Below, piece by piece: positions 11,771 through 45,628 of a stretch of DNA of 64,000 nucleotides. Made by a program: the position numbers and the translations under genes. The stretch spans positions 242,079 to 306,078 of the forward strand of contig BMVA01000005.1 of the NCBI GenBank assembly GCA_014650475.1. The letters are read 5' to 3'. This stretch comes from Streptomyces albogriseolus. Lineage in GTDB: Bacteria > Actinomycetota > Actinomycetes > Streptomycetales > Streptomycetaceae. The notes under the pieces are model-generated. The model searched no databases, was not told the DNA's origin, and saw nothing but the letters and a program-made list of their open reading frames with translations. The number at the start of each line of letters is the position of its first letter. Within the stretch, counting starts at the first letter, position 1.

Positions 11771-11799
11771 TCGCGCAGTTCCCCGCGTCCCTAAGGGGT
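11771..11799. repeat. Streptomyces-type intergenic repeat, copy 2
   Basis: A second copy 74 bp downstream, TCGCGCAGTTCCCCGCGTCC followed by CTAAGGGGT. The TAG stop codon of the leftward response-regulator gene lies inside this copy, so the repeat forms the last codons and 3' end of that gene. Confidence 0.7.
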
Positions 11800-12453
11800 C
11801 TGGCGGCGGGCGTTCTCGAGGAAGTGGAGGACTGCTGCCACGCGGCGGTCCGTGCGGTCCGTGGGGGGCAGGTCGAGCTTGGCGAAGATGCTGCGGATGT
11901 GCTTGTGCACGGCCCCGTCGCTGACCACGAGGCGTTCCGCGACGGCCGCGTTGCCCAGGCCTTCCGCCATCAGCGCGAGCACGTCCCGCTCGCGAGGGCT
12001 CAGCCGCTCCAGGCGGGTGTCGGGCCTGCTGCGGGTGAGCAGCTGGGCGACGACCTCCGGGTCGATCGCGGTGCCGCCGTCCGCCACCCGGTGCAGCGCC
12101 TCCAGGAACTCCTCGACCCTCCCCACCCGCTCCTTCAGCAGATAGCCGAGCCGGGCGCTGCCCTGCGCGAGCAGGTCGGTGGCGAAGGCCTGCTCGACGT
12201 AGGCGGACAGCACGAGCACCGCGAGGCCGGGCAGCCGCCGCCGCGCCTCCACGGCGGCGGTGATCCCCTCGTCGGTGTGGGTGGGCGGCATCCGTACGTC
12301 GACGATGGCGACGTCCGGCCGTTCCGCGTCGACGGCGTCGAGGAAGGCGCCGGGCTCCTCGGCAGTCGCCACCACGTCCAGGGACTCGGCGCGCAGCAGC
12401 AGCGCCAGCCCCTCGCGCAGCAGGGCGTCGTCCTCGGCGATCACGATCCGCAT
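11791..12453 (-). CDS. LuxR/NarL family two-component response regulator
   Basis: A 220-residue response regulator: receiver domain (acidic pair Glu7-Asp8-Asp9, phospho-acceptor Asp52 in VAIVDVRMPP, Lys in YLLKERV) and a C-terminal LuxR helix-turn-helix (LSPRERDVLALMAEGLGNAA, HKHIRSIFAKL). It is the last gene of a leftward ABC transporter/two-component operon and overlaps the kinase gene by 13 bp, so translation is coupled. It probably activates the transporter genes in response to the kinase's signal, as in antibiotic- or envelope-stress export modules. The 3' end falls in a repeated intergenic element. Confidence 0.92.
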   Translation of the reverse strand: MRIVIAEDDALLREGLALLLRAESLDVVATAEEPGAFLDAVDAERPDVAIVDVRMPPTHTDEGITAAVEARRRLPGLAVLVLSAYVEQAFATDLLAQGSARLGYLLKERVGRVEEFLEALHRVADGGTAIDPEVVAQLLTRSRPDTRLERLSPRERDVLALMAEGLGNAAVAERLVVSDGAVHKHIRSIFAKLDLPPTDRTDRRVAAVLHFLENARRQTP

Positions 12454-14270
12454 GGCAGGGTCACCTTCAGGGTGGTGGGGCCGCCGGGAGGGCTGGCCAG
12501 CTCCAGTGTTCCGTCGTGGGCCTCGACACGGCGTCGGATGCCGGTGATCCCGGTCCCGCCGTGCTCGCCGGCGCCGCCGTGGCCGTCGTCGCGGACCTCC
12601 ACGTGCAGCAGCCCGTCGGCCACGCGGACGGCGACCCGCGCCTCGCCCGCGCCGCTGTGCCGGGCGATGTTGGTGAGGGCCTCGGCGACCGCGAAGTACG
12701 CCGTCGCCTCGACCGCCGCCGGGCACCGCGCGGGCAGGTCGGCATCGACCCGGCACGGCACCGGACAGCCGGCCGCGAGCGCGGTGAGCGCGTCGGGCAG
12801 GCTGCGGTCGGCCAGGACCGGCGGGAGGATGCCGCGCACGACCGCCCGCAGTTCGGTGAGCGCCTGCTCGGCGGCGTCCTGGGCGCGGTCCAGCAGGGCC
12901 GCGGCCTCCTCCGGGTCGCGGGCGAGGGCACGGCGGGCGGCGCCGAGCAGCACGGTGACGGCGACGACCCGGTTCTGCGTGCCGTCGTGCAACGCCCGCT
13001 CCACGCGACGGAGTTCGGTGACGTGGGCGTCCAGGGCGGCGGCGCGCGTGGCGGTCAGCTCCGCGACCCGCAAAACCAGGTCGGTGCCCGGGTCGGGGCT
13101 GAGCAGGCGGCGTCCGGGCCAGGTCTGGAGCCGGGTGAGGGCGGGCGCGCACAGCAGGGTGACGCCGACCAGGGCCACGCCGATCGCGCTGACGGCGAGG
13201 GCGCCGGGCCAGTCACGGACGGTCCACCAGCCCACGGCGGACGTGGCCTCGCTCTCCGGCAGAACGGTCCAGTACAGCGGGAAGGTGACGTCGTGGGCCG
13301 CGCTCAGCGGCAGCGTCGCCCCGACCAGACCGAGGAACAGGCCGAGGAACGCGTGCGTGACCACCCAGCGGACCTCCCGGCGGACGGTGCGGTCGGCGAG
13401 CATCGCCCGCAGCCCGTCGGGCGGCGGCGCCGGGCCGACGATCTCCGGGCCCCAGCGGGAGAGCCTGCCGCGTTCCCGGTCGGCGACCGCGCGCACCGCG
13501 TGCAGGGCGGACGGCAGCAGCCACAGGCCCACGCCGACGACGCAGGCCGCCGTGGTGAGGGCCAGCCACAGCGTGGCGAGCAGGGCGAGCAGGGCGGTGC
13601 CCAGTCCCCCGATCAGGTGCTCCAGCGCGTCCAGCGCGGTCCGGGCACGGACGGCCACCGCCCGGCGCCGCCCCGGCCGTACGCCCGCCGGGCGGTCGTG
13701 GGTCACCACCATCCGCACCTCCCAGGCACGGAGGATAGAACGCCGCCCCGCCGCCCCGCCCGGCCGCCCGCCCTGCGGACGCCCGGGGCCGGGGCCCATT
13801 GCCCGGGCGCGGGCACGGGAGCGGGAGGGCGCGCCGGAGGCGGCGGGTTTGCGGGAAGTGGCGGGTTTGCGGGAAGTGGCGGGTTTGCCAGGGTAGACGC
13901 CCGCGCCAGACCTGTCCGGTGCGCCGGAGCGGACGGGCACGCGGACGACGGCAGGCGTGCCAGAGCCGACAGACGCGCCGGAACCAACGGGCATGCGAGA
14001 CCCGGCGGATGCGCGAGAGCGGACAGGCACGCCGGAACCGGTTGGCGCACCGATGTCGACAGATACCCCGGCACCGGCCGGCACGCCGGAACCAGCAGAC
14101 GCGCGACAACCGGCAGACCCACCGGAGCCGACAGACGCGCCGGAACCAACGGGCACGCGAGAACCGGCCGCCGTGCCAGAACCGGCAGGCCCGCCAGAGC
14201 CGACAGGCGTACCGGAACCGGCAGGCGTGTCAGAAGCGGCGGGCGGGCCTGTGCTGTCAGGCGTGGTCAC
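12441..14270 (-). CDS. Two-component sensor histidine kinase with hexapeptide-repeat N-terminal extension (core from 13712)
   Basis: The conserved core (423 residues from ATG 13712) has membrane-spanning segments, a HisKA_3 dimerisation region with phospho-accepting His in RALHDGTQ (core residue 242) and an HATPase_c domain (AEALTNIARHSGAG, DDGHGGAG, GTGITGIRRRVEAHDG). It pairs with the downstream regulator. The frame stays open upstream to a GTG at 14270 that overlaps the permease stop as GTGA, which would add 186 residues. Most of these come from 18-bp units encoding [PS]-[AV]-G-S-G-x hexapeptides. Against the longer form, GGGAGG lies 5 nt before ATG 13712, and the array's third codon positions are only about half G/C. 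The core assignment is firm; the extended start is uncertain. Confidence 0.8.
   Translation of the reverse strand: MTTPDSTGPPAASDTPAGSGTPVGSGGPAGSGTAAGSRVPVGSGASVGSGGSAGCRASAGSGVPAGAGVSVDIGAPTGSGVPVRSRASAGSRMPVGSGASVGSGTPAVVRVPVRSGAPDRSGAGVYPGKPATSRKPATSRKPAASGAPSRSRARARAMGPGPGRPQGGRPGGAAGRRSILRAWEVRMVVTHDRPAGVRPGRRRAVAVRARTALDALEHLIGGLGTALLALLATLWLALTTAACVVGVGLWLLPSALHAVRAVADRERGRLSRWGPEIVGPAPPPDGLRAMLADRTVRREVRWVVTHAFLGLFLGLVGATLPLSAAHDVTFPLYWTVLPESEATSAVGWWTVRDWPGALAVSAIGVALVGVTLLCAPALTRLQTWPGRRLLSPDPGTDLVLRVAELTATRAAALDAHVTELRRVERALHDGTQNRVVAVTVLLGAARRALARDPEEAAALLDRAQDAAEQALTELRAVVRGILPPVLADRSLPDALTALAAGCPVPCRVDADLPARCPAAVEATAYFAVAEALTNIARHSGAGEARVAVRVADGLLHVEVRDDGHGGAGEHGGTGITGIRRRVEAHDGTLELASPPGGPTTLKVTLPCGS
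13813..14262. repeat. Tandem array of about 25 degenerate 18-bp units
   Basis: A 450-bp minisatellite-like array with exact 18-bp period and no indels. Plus-strand units resemble GCGCCGGAACCGGCAGGC; identical neighbours occur at 13849-13866 and 13867-13884, others differ at several positions. Because 18 is a multiple of three, every frame encodes a hexapeptide repeat; in the kinase frame it is PAGSGT/PVGSGA-like. It fills the gap between the ABC permease stop and the kinase core. Confidence 0.9.
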
Positions 14271-16813
14271 TCGCGGACGCCCATGCCCTCGACCGGCGTC
14301 GTGCGCAGGATGCGGCCGACCGGGACCATCGTGGCGAGCAGGGCCAGCGCCGCCGTGCCGCCGAGGAGGGCCGCCCAGCCGGCGGCCGGGACGTGGGGCA
14401 CGGTGGCTCCGGTGACCGCGCGGACGATCGTGGTGAGGGTGACGCCGGCGATCACGGCGCCGATCAGCAGCGCCACGCCCAGCAGGCCGGCCTGTTCGGC
14501 GTGGACCATCCGCTTCACCTGGCCGCGGGTGACGCCGACCAGGCGGAGCAGGGCCAGCTCCCGGGTGCGGGCGAGCGCGGCCATGACGAGGGTGTTGGCC
14601 GCGGCCAGCACCGCGTAGCCGACCAGGACGGCGACGAGCATCTTGTTGAGCCAGCCGCTCACCGCGACGTCCTCGGCGAGTTCGCCGGTCAGGCGGGCGG
14701 TGTCGACCACCTGACCGCCCGGGTGACGGCGGGCCAGCTCGGCGAGGGCACGCTCGGCGCCCGCGTCCGGGGCGGTGCGGATCAGCACCCGGTCGTCGAG
14801 CCCGGTGACGGTGTGCCCGTCGAGGGTCCGCCGGTGCAGGGTGACGTCGCCGAAGCCCCAGCCGCGCTCGTAGAGGGCGACGACGCGCAGGGTGACGGGC
14901 GTGCCGTCGCCGAGCCACAGCCGCGCCCTGTCCCCCAGCCGCCAGCCCGCCGCGTCCGCGCGTGCGGTGGAGACGGCCACGGTGTCCTCGCGCAGGGCGT
15001 CGAGGCTGCCGGAGCGGACCCGCAGGTCCAGGGTGCGGTCCGCGCCCAGCGGGTCGATGCCCTGCGCGGGCACCGTCTGCGGTTCGAGCCGGTCGGGCAC
15101 GACCACGGAGGTGCGGCGCACGCCGGTCGCGGCGACCACCCCGGGGACGCGGCGCGCCTCGGCCGCGGCGGAGGCGGGCAGTCCGGCGCCGGAGGTGAGC
15201 GCGTGCTGGGCGAGGACGCCCTCACGGCTCTGCACGACCGTCTGCCGCTCCAGGTTGTCCTGGAGGAACCACACCGTGCCGCCGAGGCCCACGGACAGCA
15301 CGAGCGCCGTGAGCACGGCGACCATGCCGCGGGCGTTGGCGCGCAGGTTGGCGGCGGCGAGGTAGCCGCTGCTGCCCCACACGGCGCGCAGCGCGGGCCC
15401 GAGCAGCCGGGCCGCGGCCTGGTTGATCCAGGGCGCGAGCAGGGCGACGCCCAGGACGAACAGGTAGAGCATGCCCATGGCGGCGCCGAGCGCGGTCTGC
15501 CCGTCGGTGGCGCCGGTGAGCCCGGTCAGCGAGACGGCGCCGCCGAGACAGGCGAGTCCGGAGATCAGGCGCACCCTGCCGCCGGTGGCGGGTTCCACGG
15601 CCGCCTCGCCGAGCGCCTCGGTGGGCCGGATGCGGGTGACGCGCAGCGCGGCGGTCCAGGCGGAGAGCAGCGCCACGACGGCGACGGTCACGACGACGGC
15701 CGCGGCGGACAGGGCGCCGCCCCGGACGGCGAAGTCGTCCGGGAGGAAGCCGCGGGAGACGAGCGCGTCGCGGACCAGGCGGACGGCGAGCAGCCCGGAG
15801 GGGACGCCCACGGTGCCGGCGAGCAGGGCGAGCAGCCCGACCTCGGCGAGGAGCATCGACCGGACCTGGCCCGGGGTGGCGGCGACGGCCCGCAGCAGGG
15901 CGAGGTCGCGGCGCCGGTGCCGTACGGACAGTCCGACGGTGCCGGCGACGACGAAGCCGACGACGGCCGCCGCGTATCCGGCGAACGCGGCCCCGGCGCC
16001 GAGGGTGAGGGAGCGGGCGGCGGCGCTCTCGGGCTCGGCGGCGAGCCCGCGGTCGTCGCCGGTGTACGCGGTGGCGCCGGCGGCGTCCGCGATCCGGCGG
16101 ACCCCGGCGAGGACGGCGTCCCGGTCGGCGTCCGGCGCCGTGAGCACGCCGACGGCGTCGTAGCGGCCGGGGTGCGGGTCGAGGGCGGCGGCGTGCGCGT
16201 CGGTGAAGAACACCGCCGCGCGCCCGCCCGGCGTGCCGTCCGCGTCGACCACGCCGCTCACCCGGTAGGCGTGGCTCACCCCGCCGGTGACCACCTCGGT
16301 GGTGGTGCCGGGTGTGAGGCCCGTGGAGCCGGCGAGCCGGGCGTCGACGGCGATCTCCCGGTCGGAACGCGGCGGCTGTCCGGACACCAGGCGGTACGGG
16401 GCGAGGGCGGTGCTCGACCAGCCGTGGCCCGTGGCGGGCAGCTCGGGAGCCGCGGTCGTGGTGACGACGAGCCGCCGGTCGCCGACCGCGCGCTCGACGC
16501 CGGGCACGTCGGCCAGTTCACCGGCCAGTTCCGCGGGGACGCTGCCCCGCTCGGGCAGGAGGACGGTGGTGCGCTCGGTCTCGCCGAGCACCGTCGGCCC
16601 GTCGACGGTCAGGTCGCGGTCGGCGACCACGGCGAGGGCCGCGCCGTAGCGGTGCGGGTCGCCCTGGTGCCGCCATCCGGACTCGACGAGCAGGGCGCAG
16701 GTCATGAGGACGGCGACGCCCGCGGCGAGCGCGACGAACGTGGCGAGCGCGACGAACGTGGCGAGGAAGCCGCCCTTGTGGTGGCGCAGCGTCTGCGCCG
16801 CGAGCCGGAGCAC
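14267..16813 (-). CDS. ABC transporter permease, FtsX/MacB-like, two-FtsX-domain type
   Basis: An 848-residue permease with an N-terminal transmembrane helix after LRLAAQTLRHHKGG, a large extracytoplasmic region, a first FtsX bundle (about residues 265-400), a second extracytoplasmic region, and a final FtsX bundle ending in GRILRTTPVEGMGVRE. This layout fits antibiotic/peptide efflux or lipoprotein-type transporters partnered with a separate ATPase. The GTG start at 16813 is 3 nt after the ATPase stop; its own stop overlaps GTG 14270 of the kinase frame. The first helix carries an exact duplication of TFVALA caused by an 18-bp tandem repeat (16725-16760). Confidence 0.9.
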   Translation of the reverse strand: MLRLAAQTLRHHKGGFLATFVALATFVALAAGVAVLMTCALLVESGWRHQGDPHRYGAALAVVADRDLTVDGPTVLGETERTTVLLPERGSVPAELAGELADVPGVERAVGDRRLVVTTTAAPELPATGHGWSSTALAPYRLVSGQPPRSDREIAVDARLAGSTGLTPGTTTEVVTGGVSHAYRVSGVVDADGTPGGRAAVFFTDAHAAALDPHPGRYDAVGVLTAPDADRDAVLAGVRRIADAAGATAYTGDDRGLAAEPESAAARSLTLGAGAAFAGYAAAVVGFVVAGTVGLSVRHRRRDLALLRAVAATPGQVRSMLLAEVGLLALLAGTVGVPSGLLAVRLVRDALVSRGFLPDDFAVRGGALSAAAVVVTVAVVALLSAWTAALRVTRIRPTEALGEAAVEPATGGRVRLISGLACLGGAVSLTGLTGATDGQTALGAAMGMLYLFVLGVALLAPWINQAAARLLGPALRAVWGSSGYLAAANLRANARGMVAVLTALVLSVGLGGTVWFLQDNLERQTVVQSREGVLAQHALTSGAGLPASAAAEARRVPGVVAATGVRRTSVVVPDRLEPQTVPAQGIDPLGADRTLDLRVRSGSLDALREDTVAVSTARADAAGWRLGDRARLWLGDGTPVTLRVVALYERGWGFGDVTLHRRTLDGHTVTGLDDRVLIRTAPDAGAERALAELARRHPGGQVVDTARLTGELAEDVAVSGWLNKMLVAVLVGYAVLAAANTLVMAALARTRELALLRLVGVTRGQVKRMVHAEQAGLLGVALLIGAVIAGVTLTTIVRAVTGATVPHVPAAGWAALLGGTAALALLATMVPVGRILRTTPVEGMGVRE
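16725..16760. repeat. 18-bp tandem duplication inside the permease gene
   Basis: GCGAGCGCGACGAACGTG occurs twice in a row (16725-16742, 16743-16760). It duplicates six residues in the first transmembrane helix of the permease. The unit length equals that of the array in the same operon, but the sequence is unrelated. Confidence 0.85.
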
Positions 16814-16816
16814 GCG

Positions 16817-17581
16817 TCAGCCCTCCCGGCTCGCGACGGGCTGCCGGTGGCCCGGCAGGGCGAGTTGTTCGGCGATCCGCTCGGCGCCGGAGCGTTCCAT
16901 GTCCCGGACGATCCGCCCGTCGGCCAGGATCAGGACGCGGTCGGCGTAGGAGGCGGCGACCGGGTCGTGGGTGACCATGACGACGGTCTGCCCGTATGCG
17001 TCGACCGCCGACCGCAGCAGGTCCAGGACGGCCGCCGCGGACCGGGTGTCGAGCGCGCCGGTGGGTTCGTCGCAGAAGATCACCTCGGGGCGGGTGACCA
17101 GCGCCCTGGCGATGGCGACGCGCTGCTGCTGGCCGCCGGAGAGCTGGGCGGGCCGGTGCCGCAGCCGCTCACCGAGGCCGACCCGCCCGACGACCTCGTC
17201 GACCCAGGCGGGGTCGGGGCGCAGGCCCGCGAGCCGGGACGGCAGCAGGATGTTCTGCTCCACGTTCAGCGCGCCCACCAGGTTGAACGCCTGGAAGACG
17301 AAGCCGACGCGGGCGCGCCGGAGTTCGGTGAGCTTCTTCTCGGACAGGGACGACAGGTCGGTGGCGCCGATCCGCACCCGCCCGGAGTCCGGCCGGTCGA
17401 GTCCGGCCGCGCAGTGCAGCAGGGTGCTCTTGCCGGATCCGGAAGGTCCCATCACGGCGGTCGCCGTGCCGCGCGGGAACTCGGCGCTCACGTCGTCGAG
17501 CGCCACGACGGGCTGTTCGCCGCCGTACGTCCTGCGCACGCGCTCGAGGGCGACGGCGCTGCCGTCCGGGATCAGGGGCAT
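16817..17581 (-). CDS. ABC transporter ATP-binding protein
   Basis: A 254-residue nucleotide-binding subunit of the MacB/LolD-like group. It has Walker A GPSGSGKST, Q-loop FVFQAFNL, signature LSGGQQQRVAIARAL, Walker B VIFCDEPTGALD and switch His in MVTHDP. It energises the FtsX permease encoded 3 nt downstream and is the first gene of a four-gene leftward operon with kinase and regulator. ATG at 17581 is the start. Export of an antimicrobial or envelope-active compound is inferred from the family and context, not demonstrated. Confidence 0.95.
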   Translation of the reverse strand: MPLIPDGSAVALERVRRTYGGEQPVVALDDVSAEFPRGTATAVMGPSGSGKSTLLHCAAGLDRPDSGRVRIGATDLSSLSEKKLTELRRARVGFVFQAFNLVGALNVEQNILLPSRLAGLRPDPAWVDEVVGRVGLGERLRHRPAQLSGGQQQRVAIARALVTRPEVIFCDEPTGALDTRSAAAVLDLLRSAVDAYGQTVVMVTHDPVAASYADRVLILADGRIVRDMERSGAERIAEQLALPGHRQPVASREG

Positions 17582-17797
17582 GGTCGGGGGCCTTCCGGGT
17601 GCGGTTCCTCGGGACCCTCCCGACGCTAGGGCGGCGGCGGGCCGCCGCCCATGCAGCCAGCGACCGGCTTGTGGTGGTGCAGGCGCTACCTGACGCGTGC
17701 GCCGTCCGGGCGGAGCGCGGGCCGCCGGTGATCGAGTGGTGTCCGGTGAGGGGCGCGCGTACGGTCGAACGGTGGACTCCCGGAAGGGGGACCCGAT

Positions 17798-44692: not shown

Positions 44693-45628
44693 GTGTCGCC
44701 ACAGCAGGGAGACCGCCCGTCCGGGCAGGGCGGCGGACGGCCCCGGCGGCACGACCGGACAACACCCCGCCCGGACCGCGAGCCCGCCGTCGTGAAGCGC
44801 GAGGATCTGCGCGCCGACTGCTCGGCCTGCTTCGGGCTGTGCTGCGTGGCCCTGCCGTTCGCCCGCTCCGCCGACTTCGCGCGGGACAAGCCCGCCGGAC
44901 GGCCGTGCGGCCATCTGCGGGACGACTTCGGCTGCGGCATCCACGCCCGGCTGCGCGACGAGGGGTACCGGGGCTGCACCGTCTTCGACTGCTTCGGCGC
45001 CGGGCAGAAGGTCTCGCAGGTCACCTTCGGCGGCACCGACTGGCGGCGGGATCCGGAATCGGCGTCCGCGATGTTCGCGGTGTTCCCGGTCATGCGGCAG
45101 CTGCACGAACTGCTCGCGTACACCGCCGAGGCGCTGGACCTTCCGGCGGCCCGTCCCGTCCACCGCGAGCTGCGCCGGGCGCTGGCGCGGATCGAGAAGC
45201 TGACCCGGGGCGACGCCGAGTCGGTCGCCGCGCTCGACGTGAACGCGCTGCGCGGGGAGGTCAACCCGCTGCTGCTGCGGGCCAGTGAGCTGACGCGGGC
45301 CCGGCTGCCGGGCCGCAGGAGGGACCACCGCGGCGCCGACCTGATGGGCGCGCGGCTGTCCGGGGCGGATCTGCGCGGGGCGAGTCTGCGCGGCGCGCTG
45401 CTCGTCGGCGCCGACCTCACGGGGGCGGACCTGCGCGGCGCGGACCTGGTCGGCGCCGATCTACGCGGCGCGGACCTGTCCGGTGCCGATCTCACCGGCG
45501 CCCTGTTCCTCACCCAGGCGCAGCTGAACGCGGCGCGCGGCGACGCGGCGACCACGCTGCCGCCGTCGCTGGGACGCCCCGCCCACTGGGCGCGTGAGGG
45601 ATCAGCCGGCAGCGTTGTCGACGCGTAG
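44693..45628 (+). CDS. Cys-rich (YkgJ-like) domain fused to pentapeptide repeats
   Basis: A 311-residue protein in two parts. About residues 45-110 hold a Cys cluster ([30 protein letters not shown]) of the YkgJ/UPF0153 kind, probably binding Zn or Fe-S. About residues 215-285 are pentapeptide repeats of A(D/S)L-x-G type ([20 protein letters not shown] and onward), which form a right-handed quadrilateral beta-helix. Some pentapeptide proteins mimic DNA and protect gyrase, but function here is unknown. GTG at 44693 is chosen for AGGAGC just upstream. The basic, low-complexity N-terminus is probably disordered. Confidence 0.82.

Follow-up and report, generated by a model that had tools for sequence, protein, structure and literature searches.

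The spacer between an FtsX-type ABC permease gene and a sensor histidine kinase gene of Streptomyces albogriseolus contains a tandem array of 18-bp units that is present beyond chance. This array is probably a neutral intercistronic minisatellite, located before a kinase that is normally started at ATG 13712. The window, by which we mean the whole stretch of 64,000 nucleotides that was analysed, carries on its minus strand, in this order, the genes for an ABC ATPase, the FtsX-type permease, the sensor histidine kinase behind a 554-nt spacer, and a LuxR-type response regulator (Table 1). The ATPase gene belongs to the same operon as the permease gene. According to the preferred explanation, an essentially neutral 18-bp minisatellite would have expanded between two cistrons of an ABC transporter/two-component operon, within one small Streptomyces clade, and the length of the array would shift as units are gained and lost. 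The kinase would be made mainly from ATG 13712 using its own GGAGG, possibly with its own promoter at TATCCT, and the open frame across the spacer would be largely a by-product of G+C-rich repeats with little A on their coding strand and a unit length divisible by three.

Table 1. Features of the transporter/two-component locus, in window coordinates
Feature	Position	Strand	Basis or remark
ABC transporter ATPase gene	16817..17584	(-)	Start codon approximate; ORF list; PF00005 E 1.6e-32 on 16817-17779
FtsX-type ABC permease gene	14267..16813	(-)	PF02687 E 5.5e-17; terminal GAG TGA
Candidate GTG start on permease stop (GTGA)	14268..14270	(-)	Sequence
Permease-kinase spacer, 554 nt, from permease stop to kinase codon 1	13713..14266	(-)	Open in kinase frame
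Minisatellite, 24 units of 18 bp, consensus TCCGGCGCGCCTGCCGGT	13821..14252	(-)	TRF, unit profile
Conserved block TATCCTCC	13730..13737	(-)	Spacer comparison; function inferred only
Shine-Dalgarno GGAGG of kinase	13718..13722	(-)	Kept in 13/13 close relatives
Sensor histidine kinase gene (Sensor, HisKA_3, HATPase_c)	12441..13712	(-)	Most likely start ATG 13712
LuxR-type response regulator gene	11791..12453	(-)	PF00072, PF00196

The initial annotation had counted about 25 units of exact period without indels, and this description holds: 24 units scoring at least 5 lie in exact 18-bp register from 14252 to 13821, with no indel, when scored with a profile that was built from the first 21 units (threshold 5). 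Shuffled spacers of the same length contain a mean of 1.4 unit matches at this threshold, and at most 5. TRF rows at periods 18, 36, 54 and 72 span 13842-14249 with scores from 94 to 182, and the self-identity of the array is 0.56-0.58 at lags of 18, 36 and 54, whereas the average for lags 3-60 is 0.335. The consensus peptide in the kinase frame is S-G-A-P-A-G, not the [PS]-[AV]-G-S-G-x that had been read from the units. Their third positions, thought to be about half A/T, are 32% A/T, and third-position G+C in the array is 0.68 against at least 0.944 in any 144-codon stretch of three neighbouring genes. A recent expansion inside or beside the sensor gene had also been suggested. The array does lie beside the gene, in a spacer that ranges from 104 to 839 nt across 11 species, but since its units are well diverged the expansion is not a very recent one.

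A DNA search gave the window itself as the sole match. In the window's own genome a pattern of two units, allowing 3 mismatches at most, has 7 matches, all within the array, compared with 1 for the reversed control pattern, and a dispersed repeat family was rejected on these grounds. With up to 2 mismatches, the pattern matches in 2 of 150 genomes of the genus, the window's own and G132, where the match is in the same spacer; the reversed control pattern matches in 18 of the 150. When 3 mismatches are permitted, three of seven relatives have 7 matches between them, of which 2 fall in the G132 spacer and the other 5 outside it. The plasmid records searched contain no match, and the array is not described in the titles and abstract openings, partially covered, of the literature on minisatellite or tandem repeats in Streptomyces. 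The window has other short-period repeats. A short 18-bp repeat (16713-16765, 2.9 copies by TRF), in which ATFVAL is repeated, lies close to the beginning of the permease gene and probably within the first membrane segment it encodes. At 45329-45502 there is a repeat with a period of 15 bp and higher periods of 30 and 45 bp, which we take to resemble a pentapeptide-repeat gene.

A role for the array at the DNA or RNA level, such as that of a structured leader or of a series of protein-binding sites controlling how much kinase is made, is extremely unlikely. Its fold is slightly better than that of shuffled sequences (z -1.59), but 7 of 100 shuffles fold equally well and the difference is not significant. 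A scan for sigma-70 consensus sequences and terminators, which misses most Streptomyces promoters, found no match in 13500-14500, and the array is not seen in eight of the 11 species with the same layout.

These 11 distinct species, the window included, have a collinear permease and kinase and an alignable kinase codon 1; they come from genome searches of samples of 150, 61, 392 and 394 genomes and of the best 80 of 168 relatives. The counts exclude same-species copies (L001, L002, L003, L005, L112, L113, L114 and L124), loci without a collinear upstream permease (14 rows with kinase identity above 66%), loci with the permease downstream, and S. prasinopilosus, where the N-terminus of the kinase cannot be aligned to codon 1. 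The array is found in three of the 11: the window (spacer of 554 nt), S. griseoincarnatus (17 units, 548 nt) and S. althioticus (20 units, 839 nt). The remaining spacers measure 116 nt in G027, 164 nt in S. cellulosae, 104 nt in CB02400, 110 nt in S. caelestis, 137 nt in S. pilosus, 143 nt in AC558, 565 nt in CHD11 and 166 nt in WC-3626. At threshold, the unit profile finds no unit in the spacers of S. cellulosae, G027, CB02400, S. caelestis and AC558, and one match each in CHD11, S. pilosus and WC-3626, where about 1.4 matches per spacer of the window's length are expected by chance. One unit-like stretch can be seen by eye in S. cellulosae, with a profile score of 4.3, which is under the threshold. 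The midpoint-rooted tree built from the DNA of the permease end and the kinase is (G027,(window,(cellulosae,(griseoincarnatus,althioticus)))), with strong support. Since the array-free S. cellulosae is nested among the three array species, the array was either gained and then lost in S. cellulosae or gained twice, a minimum of two changes. Two further relatives, S. calvus (L038) and S. pseudogriseolus (L097), have no permease match within 4,000 bases ahead of the kinase. In S. pseudogriseolus, the DNA ahead of the kinase (upstream of 4001) resembles by eye the window region ahead of the ATPase gene, as after loss of the transporter genes by deletion.

The initial annotation had proposed that the units encode a 186-residue N-terminal extension of the kinase. 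In this reading translation restarts at GTGA and passes through the array, giving the kinase a disordered tail of variable length, rich in G, S, P and A, in addition to a short form from 13712. The frame is indeed open, as had been stated, from the GTG at 14270 that overlaps the permease stop through the kinase end (609 codons). In S. griseoincarnatus, 16 of 17 units are in the kinase frame even though some inter-unit distances are 33 and 45 nt, multiples of 3 and not of 18. The array, however, does not have the codon usage of its neighbours. Its G+C at codon positions 1, 2 and 3 is 0.72, 0.83 and 0.68, while the lowest third-position G+C in any 144-codon window is 0.944 in the permease and the kinase and 0.951 in the regulator. 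In S. althioticus, six of the 20 scored units are in other frames, five of them the 5′-most, and the frame of the first four units hits a stop 628 nt before kinase codon 1. A Pfam search of the 186 residues encoded upstream of 13712 gave no match, and the GTG at 14270 has no well-placed Shine-Dalgarno sequence, the nearest GAGGG ending 15 nt upstream. On this evidence the extended kinase is unlikely.

The substitutions in the spacer point in the same direction, with some reservations. Summed over four pairs of species, two of which share a short branch, there are 39, 27 and 34 changes at codon positions 1, 2 and 3 of the spacer, compared with 123, 79 and 244 in the kinase (Fisher p 2e-4), so that the third position takes 34 of 100 changes in the spacer and 244 of 446 in the kinase. 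The sum includes the full spacers for CB02400-caelestis, pilosus-AC558 and window-G027, and the proximal 75 nt for griseoincarnatus-althioticus because the arrays of that pair do not align reliably (49/44/43 changes over the full spacer, with 63 columns out of phase). In the pairs outside the sum, the changes are 12/17/13 for griseoincarnatus-cellulosae, 14/16/11 for althioticus-cellulosae, 59/60/79 for window-griseoincarnatus, 8/3/10 for CB02400-AC558, 6/2/6 for caelestis-AC558 and 7/8/14 for AC558-CHD11 (28 columns out of phase). In favour of an extension, the accepted first 40 codons of the kinase are themselves loose, with 24/16/32 changes in the same four pairs, and the spacer pattern is not significantly unlike theirs (third-position changes are 34 of 100 in the spacer and 32 of 72 in these codons, p 0.20). 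The changes in the CB02400-caelestis spacer, 7/1/6, are few at position 2, as coding DNA can show. Pooled over the 11 species, the kinase G+C by position is 0.74/0.52/0.92 in codons 1-10 and 0.87/0.85/0.79 in codons 11-20, where the coding profile does not surpass that of the spacer; from codon 21 onwards the profile is clear. Because it is patchy over codons 1-20, composition is not enough by itself to place the start at 13712. The kinase frames of S. hirsutus (L043) and S. prasinopilosus (L044) begin with low-complexity stretches rich in Ala, Ser and Pro, and loose N-terminal tails therefore do occur among these kinases.

The site ahead of ATG 13712 is conserved in the close relatives. GGAGG precedes the kinase start in all 13 close relatives, including S. 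pseudogriseolus and S. calvus, at -10 in 12 of them and at -13 in WC-3626, while in the more distant S. hirsutus and S. prasinopilosus it is not kept. Together with the third-position composition of the array and the even spacer substitutions, this conservation speaks against the functional extension first proposed. Upstream of GGAGG, TATCCTCC is present in 10 of 11 spacers. Its TATCCT, which is also found at an apparently matching place in S. hirsutus and S. prasinopilosus and is absent in S. pseudogriseolus and S. calvus, may, judged by its sequence, be a candidate -10 element. The CCTCC of the same block, which sits 7 nt before GGAGG in 11 of the 13 close relatives, may pair with the Shine-Dalgarno sequence in a folding model.

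Such pairing is central to a different explanation, a translational-coupling relay in which the open spacer keeps permease ribosomes moving so that they open up a CCTCC:GGAGG hairpin that covers the kinase site; the peptide would be irrelevant. The review PMC12548453 gives RNA unfolding by upstream ribosomes as one of two proposed models of coupling, and no stop interrupts the GTG frame before the kinase start in any of the 11 species. In CHD11 and WC-3626, the two species that are off frame, the GTG frame closes with a TGA that overlaps the start of the kinase, at +7 (GTGA) and +4 (ATGA) respectively. However, 16 of 22 control frames also run through to the kinase start (p 0.07), and a TGA at +1 or +7 occurs in the +1 control frame of five other species as well, since GTG ACC or a similar sequence is a common beginning of the kinase. 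Pairing of CCTCC with GGAGG is predicted at 0.02 for the window and reaches 0.44 or more in only 7 of the 13 close relatives, and the block reads CCTCA in S. hirsutus and S. prasinopilosus. Coupling is also described, in the same review, as most efficient over short distances. The hairpin relay is thus very unlikely.

The open frame by itself was rejected as proof of coding. In dinucleotide shuffles of the window spacer a given frame is open 40% of the time, so the open frame alone says little, and for the 11 spacers taken individually this value ranges from 21% to 91%; the 16 open control frames of 22 agree with this. The coding strand of the array region is scarce in A (plus-strand A/T skew of 0.46-0.74 over 13900-14299), and the GTGA overlap exists because the last codon of the permease is GAG before TGA. 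The alignment of orthologous operons, which the initial annotation had called for, gave a divided answer. The GTG and the kinase are in phase in nine of the 11 species, with nine different spacer lengths (naive binomial p 0.0014, weakened by shared ancestry and by steps of 18 bp). Since several of the length differences are not multiples of 18, this phase-keeping is not wholly due to gain and loss of units. In the four long spacers the GTG frame is open in 4/4, against 2/8 control frames (p 0.03). The permease-kinase frame is broken in CHD11 and WC-3626, and in a twelfth species, S. prasinopilosus, GTAG replaces GTGA and the permease TAG is in the kinase frame. Orthologues with an interrupted frame were half of what the initial annotation had named as speaking against it, the other half being proof of initiation at 13712 alone; the interrupted frames exist, in CHD11 and WC-3626, and the kinases of S. 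calvus and S. pseudogriseolus have no permease match within the 4,000 bases ahead of them. The off-frame spacer of CHD11 (L035) has, as read by eye, a long perfect inverted repeat, GAACGCTCCCCGC...GCGGGGAGCGTTC.

These frame statistics, with the loose N-terminus of the kinase, are what leave the extension and the relay some probability. A further reading is a translated, sequence-neutral relay, in which selection would hold the frame open all the way between the permease stop and the start of the kinase while the sequence drifts and a minisatellite is allowed. We consider this quite unlikely; if it were true, the kinase dose or the share of extended kinase would vary with repeat number and frame.

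The neutral minisatellite is preferred because the array has no codon usage, the spacer substitutions are even, GGAGG is kept in 13/13 and the frame is broken in 2/11. It is also favoured by the kinases without a permease match in S. calvus and S. pseudogriseolus, the out-of-frame units of S. althioticus and the nested, array-free S. cellulosae. The nine of 11 species in phase, the GTG frame open in 11/11 and in the long spacers, the CB02400-caelestis changes, the likeness to the first 40 codons and the unclean profile after 13712 count against it. If the array is ordinary, it provides a clean case of an 18-bp minisatellite in G+C-rich DNA yielding a long open frame, one that could mislead start-site annotation by 186 codons. 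If a relay or an extension is true, repeat number could tune the two-component system with the kinase core unaltered. The clade holds natural variants with the frame kept, with the frame broken and with no permease in front.

Minisatellites, or VNTR loci, in intercistronic spacers are a recognised class in bacteria. The present array resembles this class in its short head-to-tail unit, in a copy number that varies among relatives and in its presence in only some members of the clade. Its 24 units of 18 bp fall within the head-to-tail unit size of roughly 10-60 bp, and the unit number differs among relatives (24 in the window, 17 in S. griseoincarnatus, 20 in S. althioticus and 0 in S. cellulosae and G027). 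The class is also marked by length differences between strains of one species; the variation compared here is between species, with one genome each. The units of the array are well diverged. Coupling at NTGA overlaps, as presented in the review PMC12548453, has a counterpart in the permease stop of the window, which likewise overlaps an in-frame GTG (GTGA); in contrast to that system, 554 nt separate the overlap from the conserved kinase frame, which has a GGAGG of its own in front. The locus as a whole is similar to those of PF13796-type sensor histidine kinases beside FtsX-type ABC permeases, with which it has in common the Sensor, HisKA_3 and HATPase domains of the kinase and the LuxR-type regulator and ABC genes alongside. 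Its distinctive feature is the 18-bp array ahead of the kinase, which is present in three species only.
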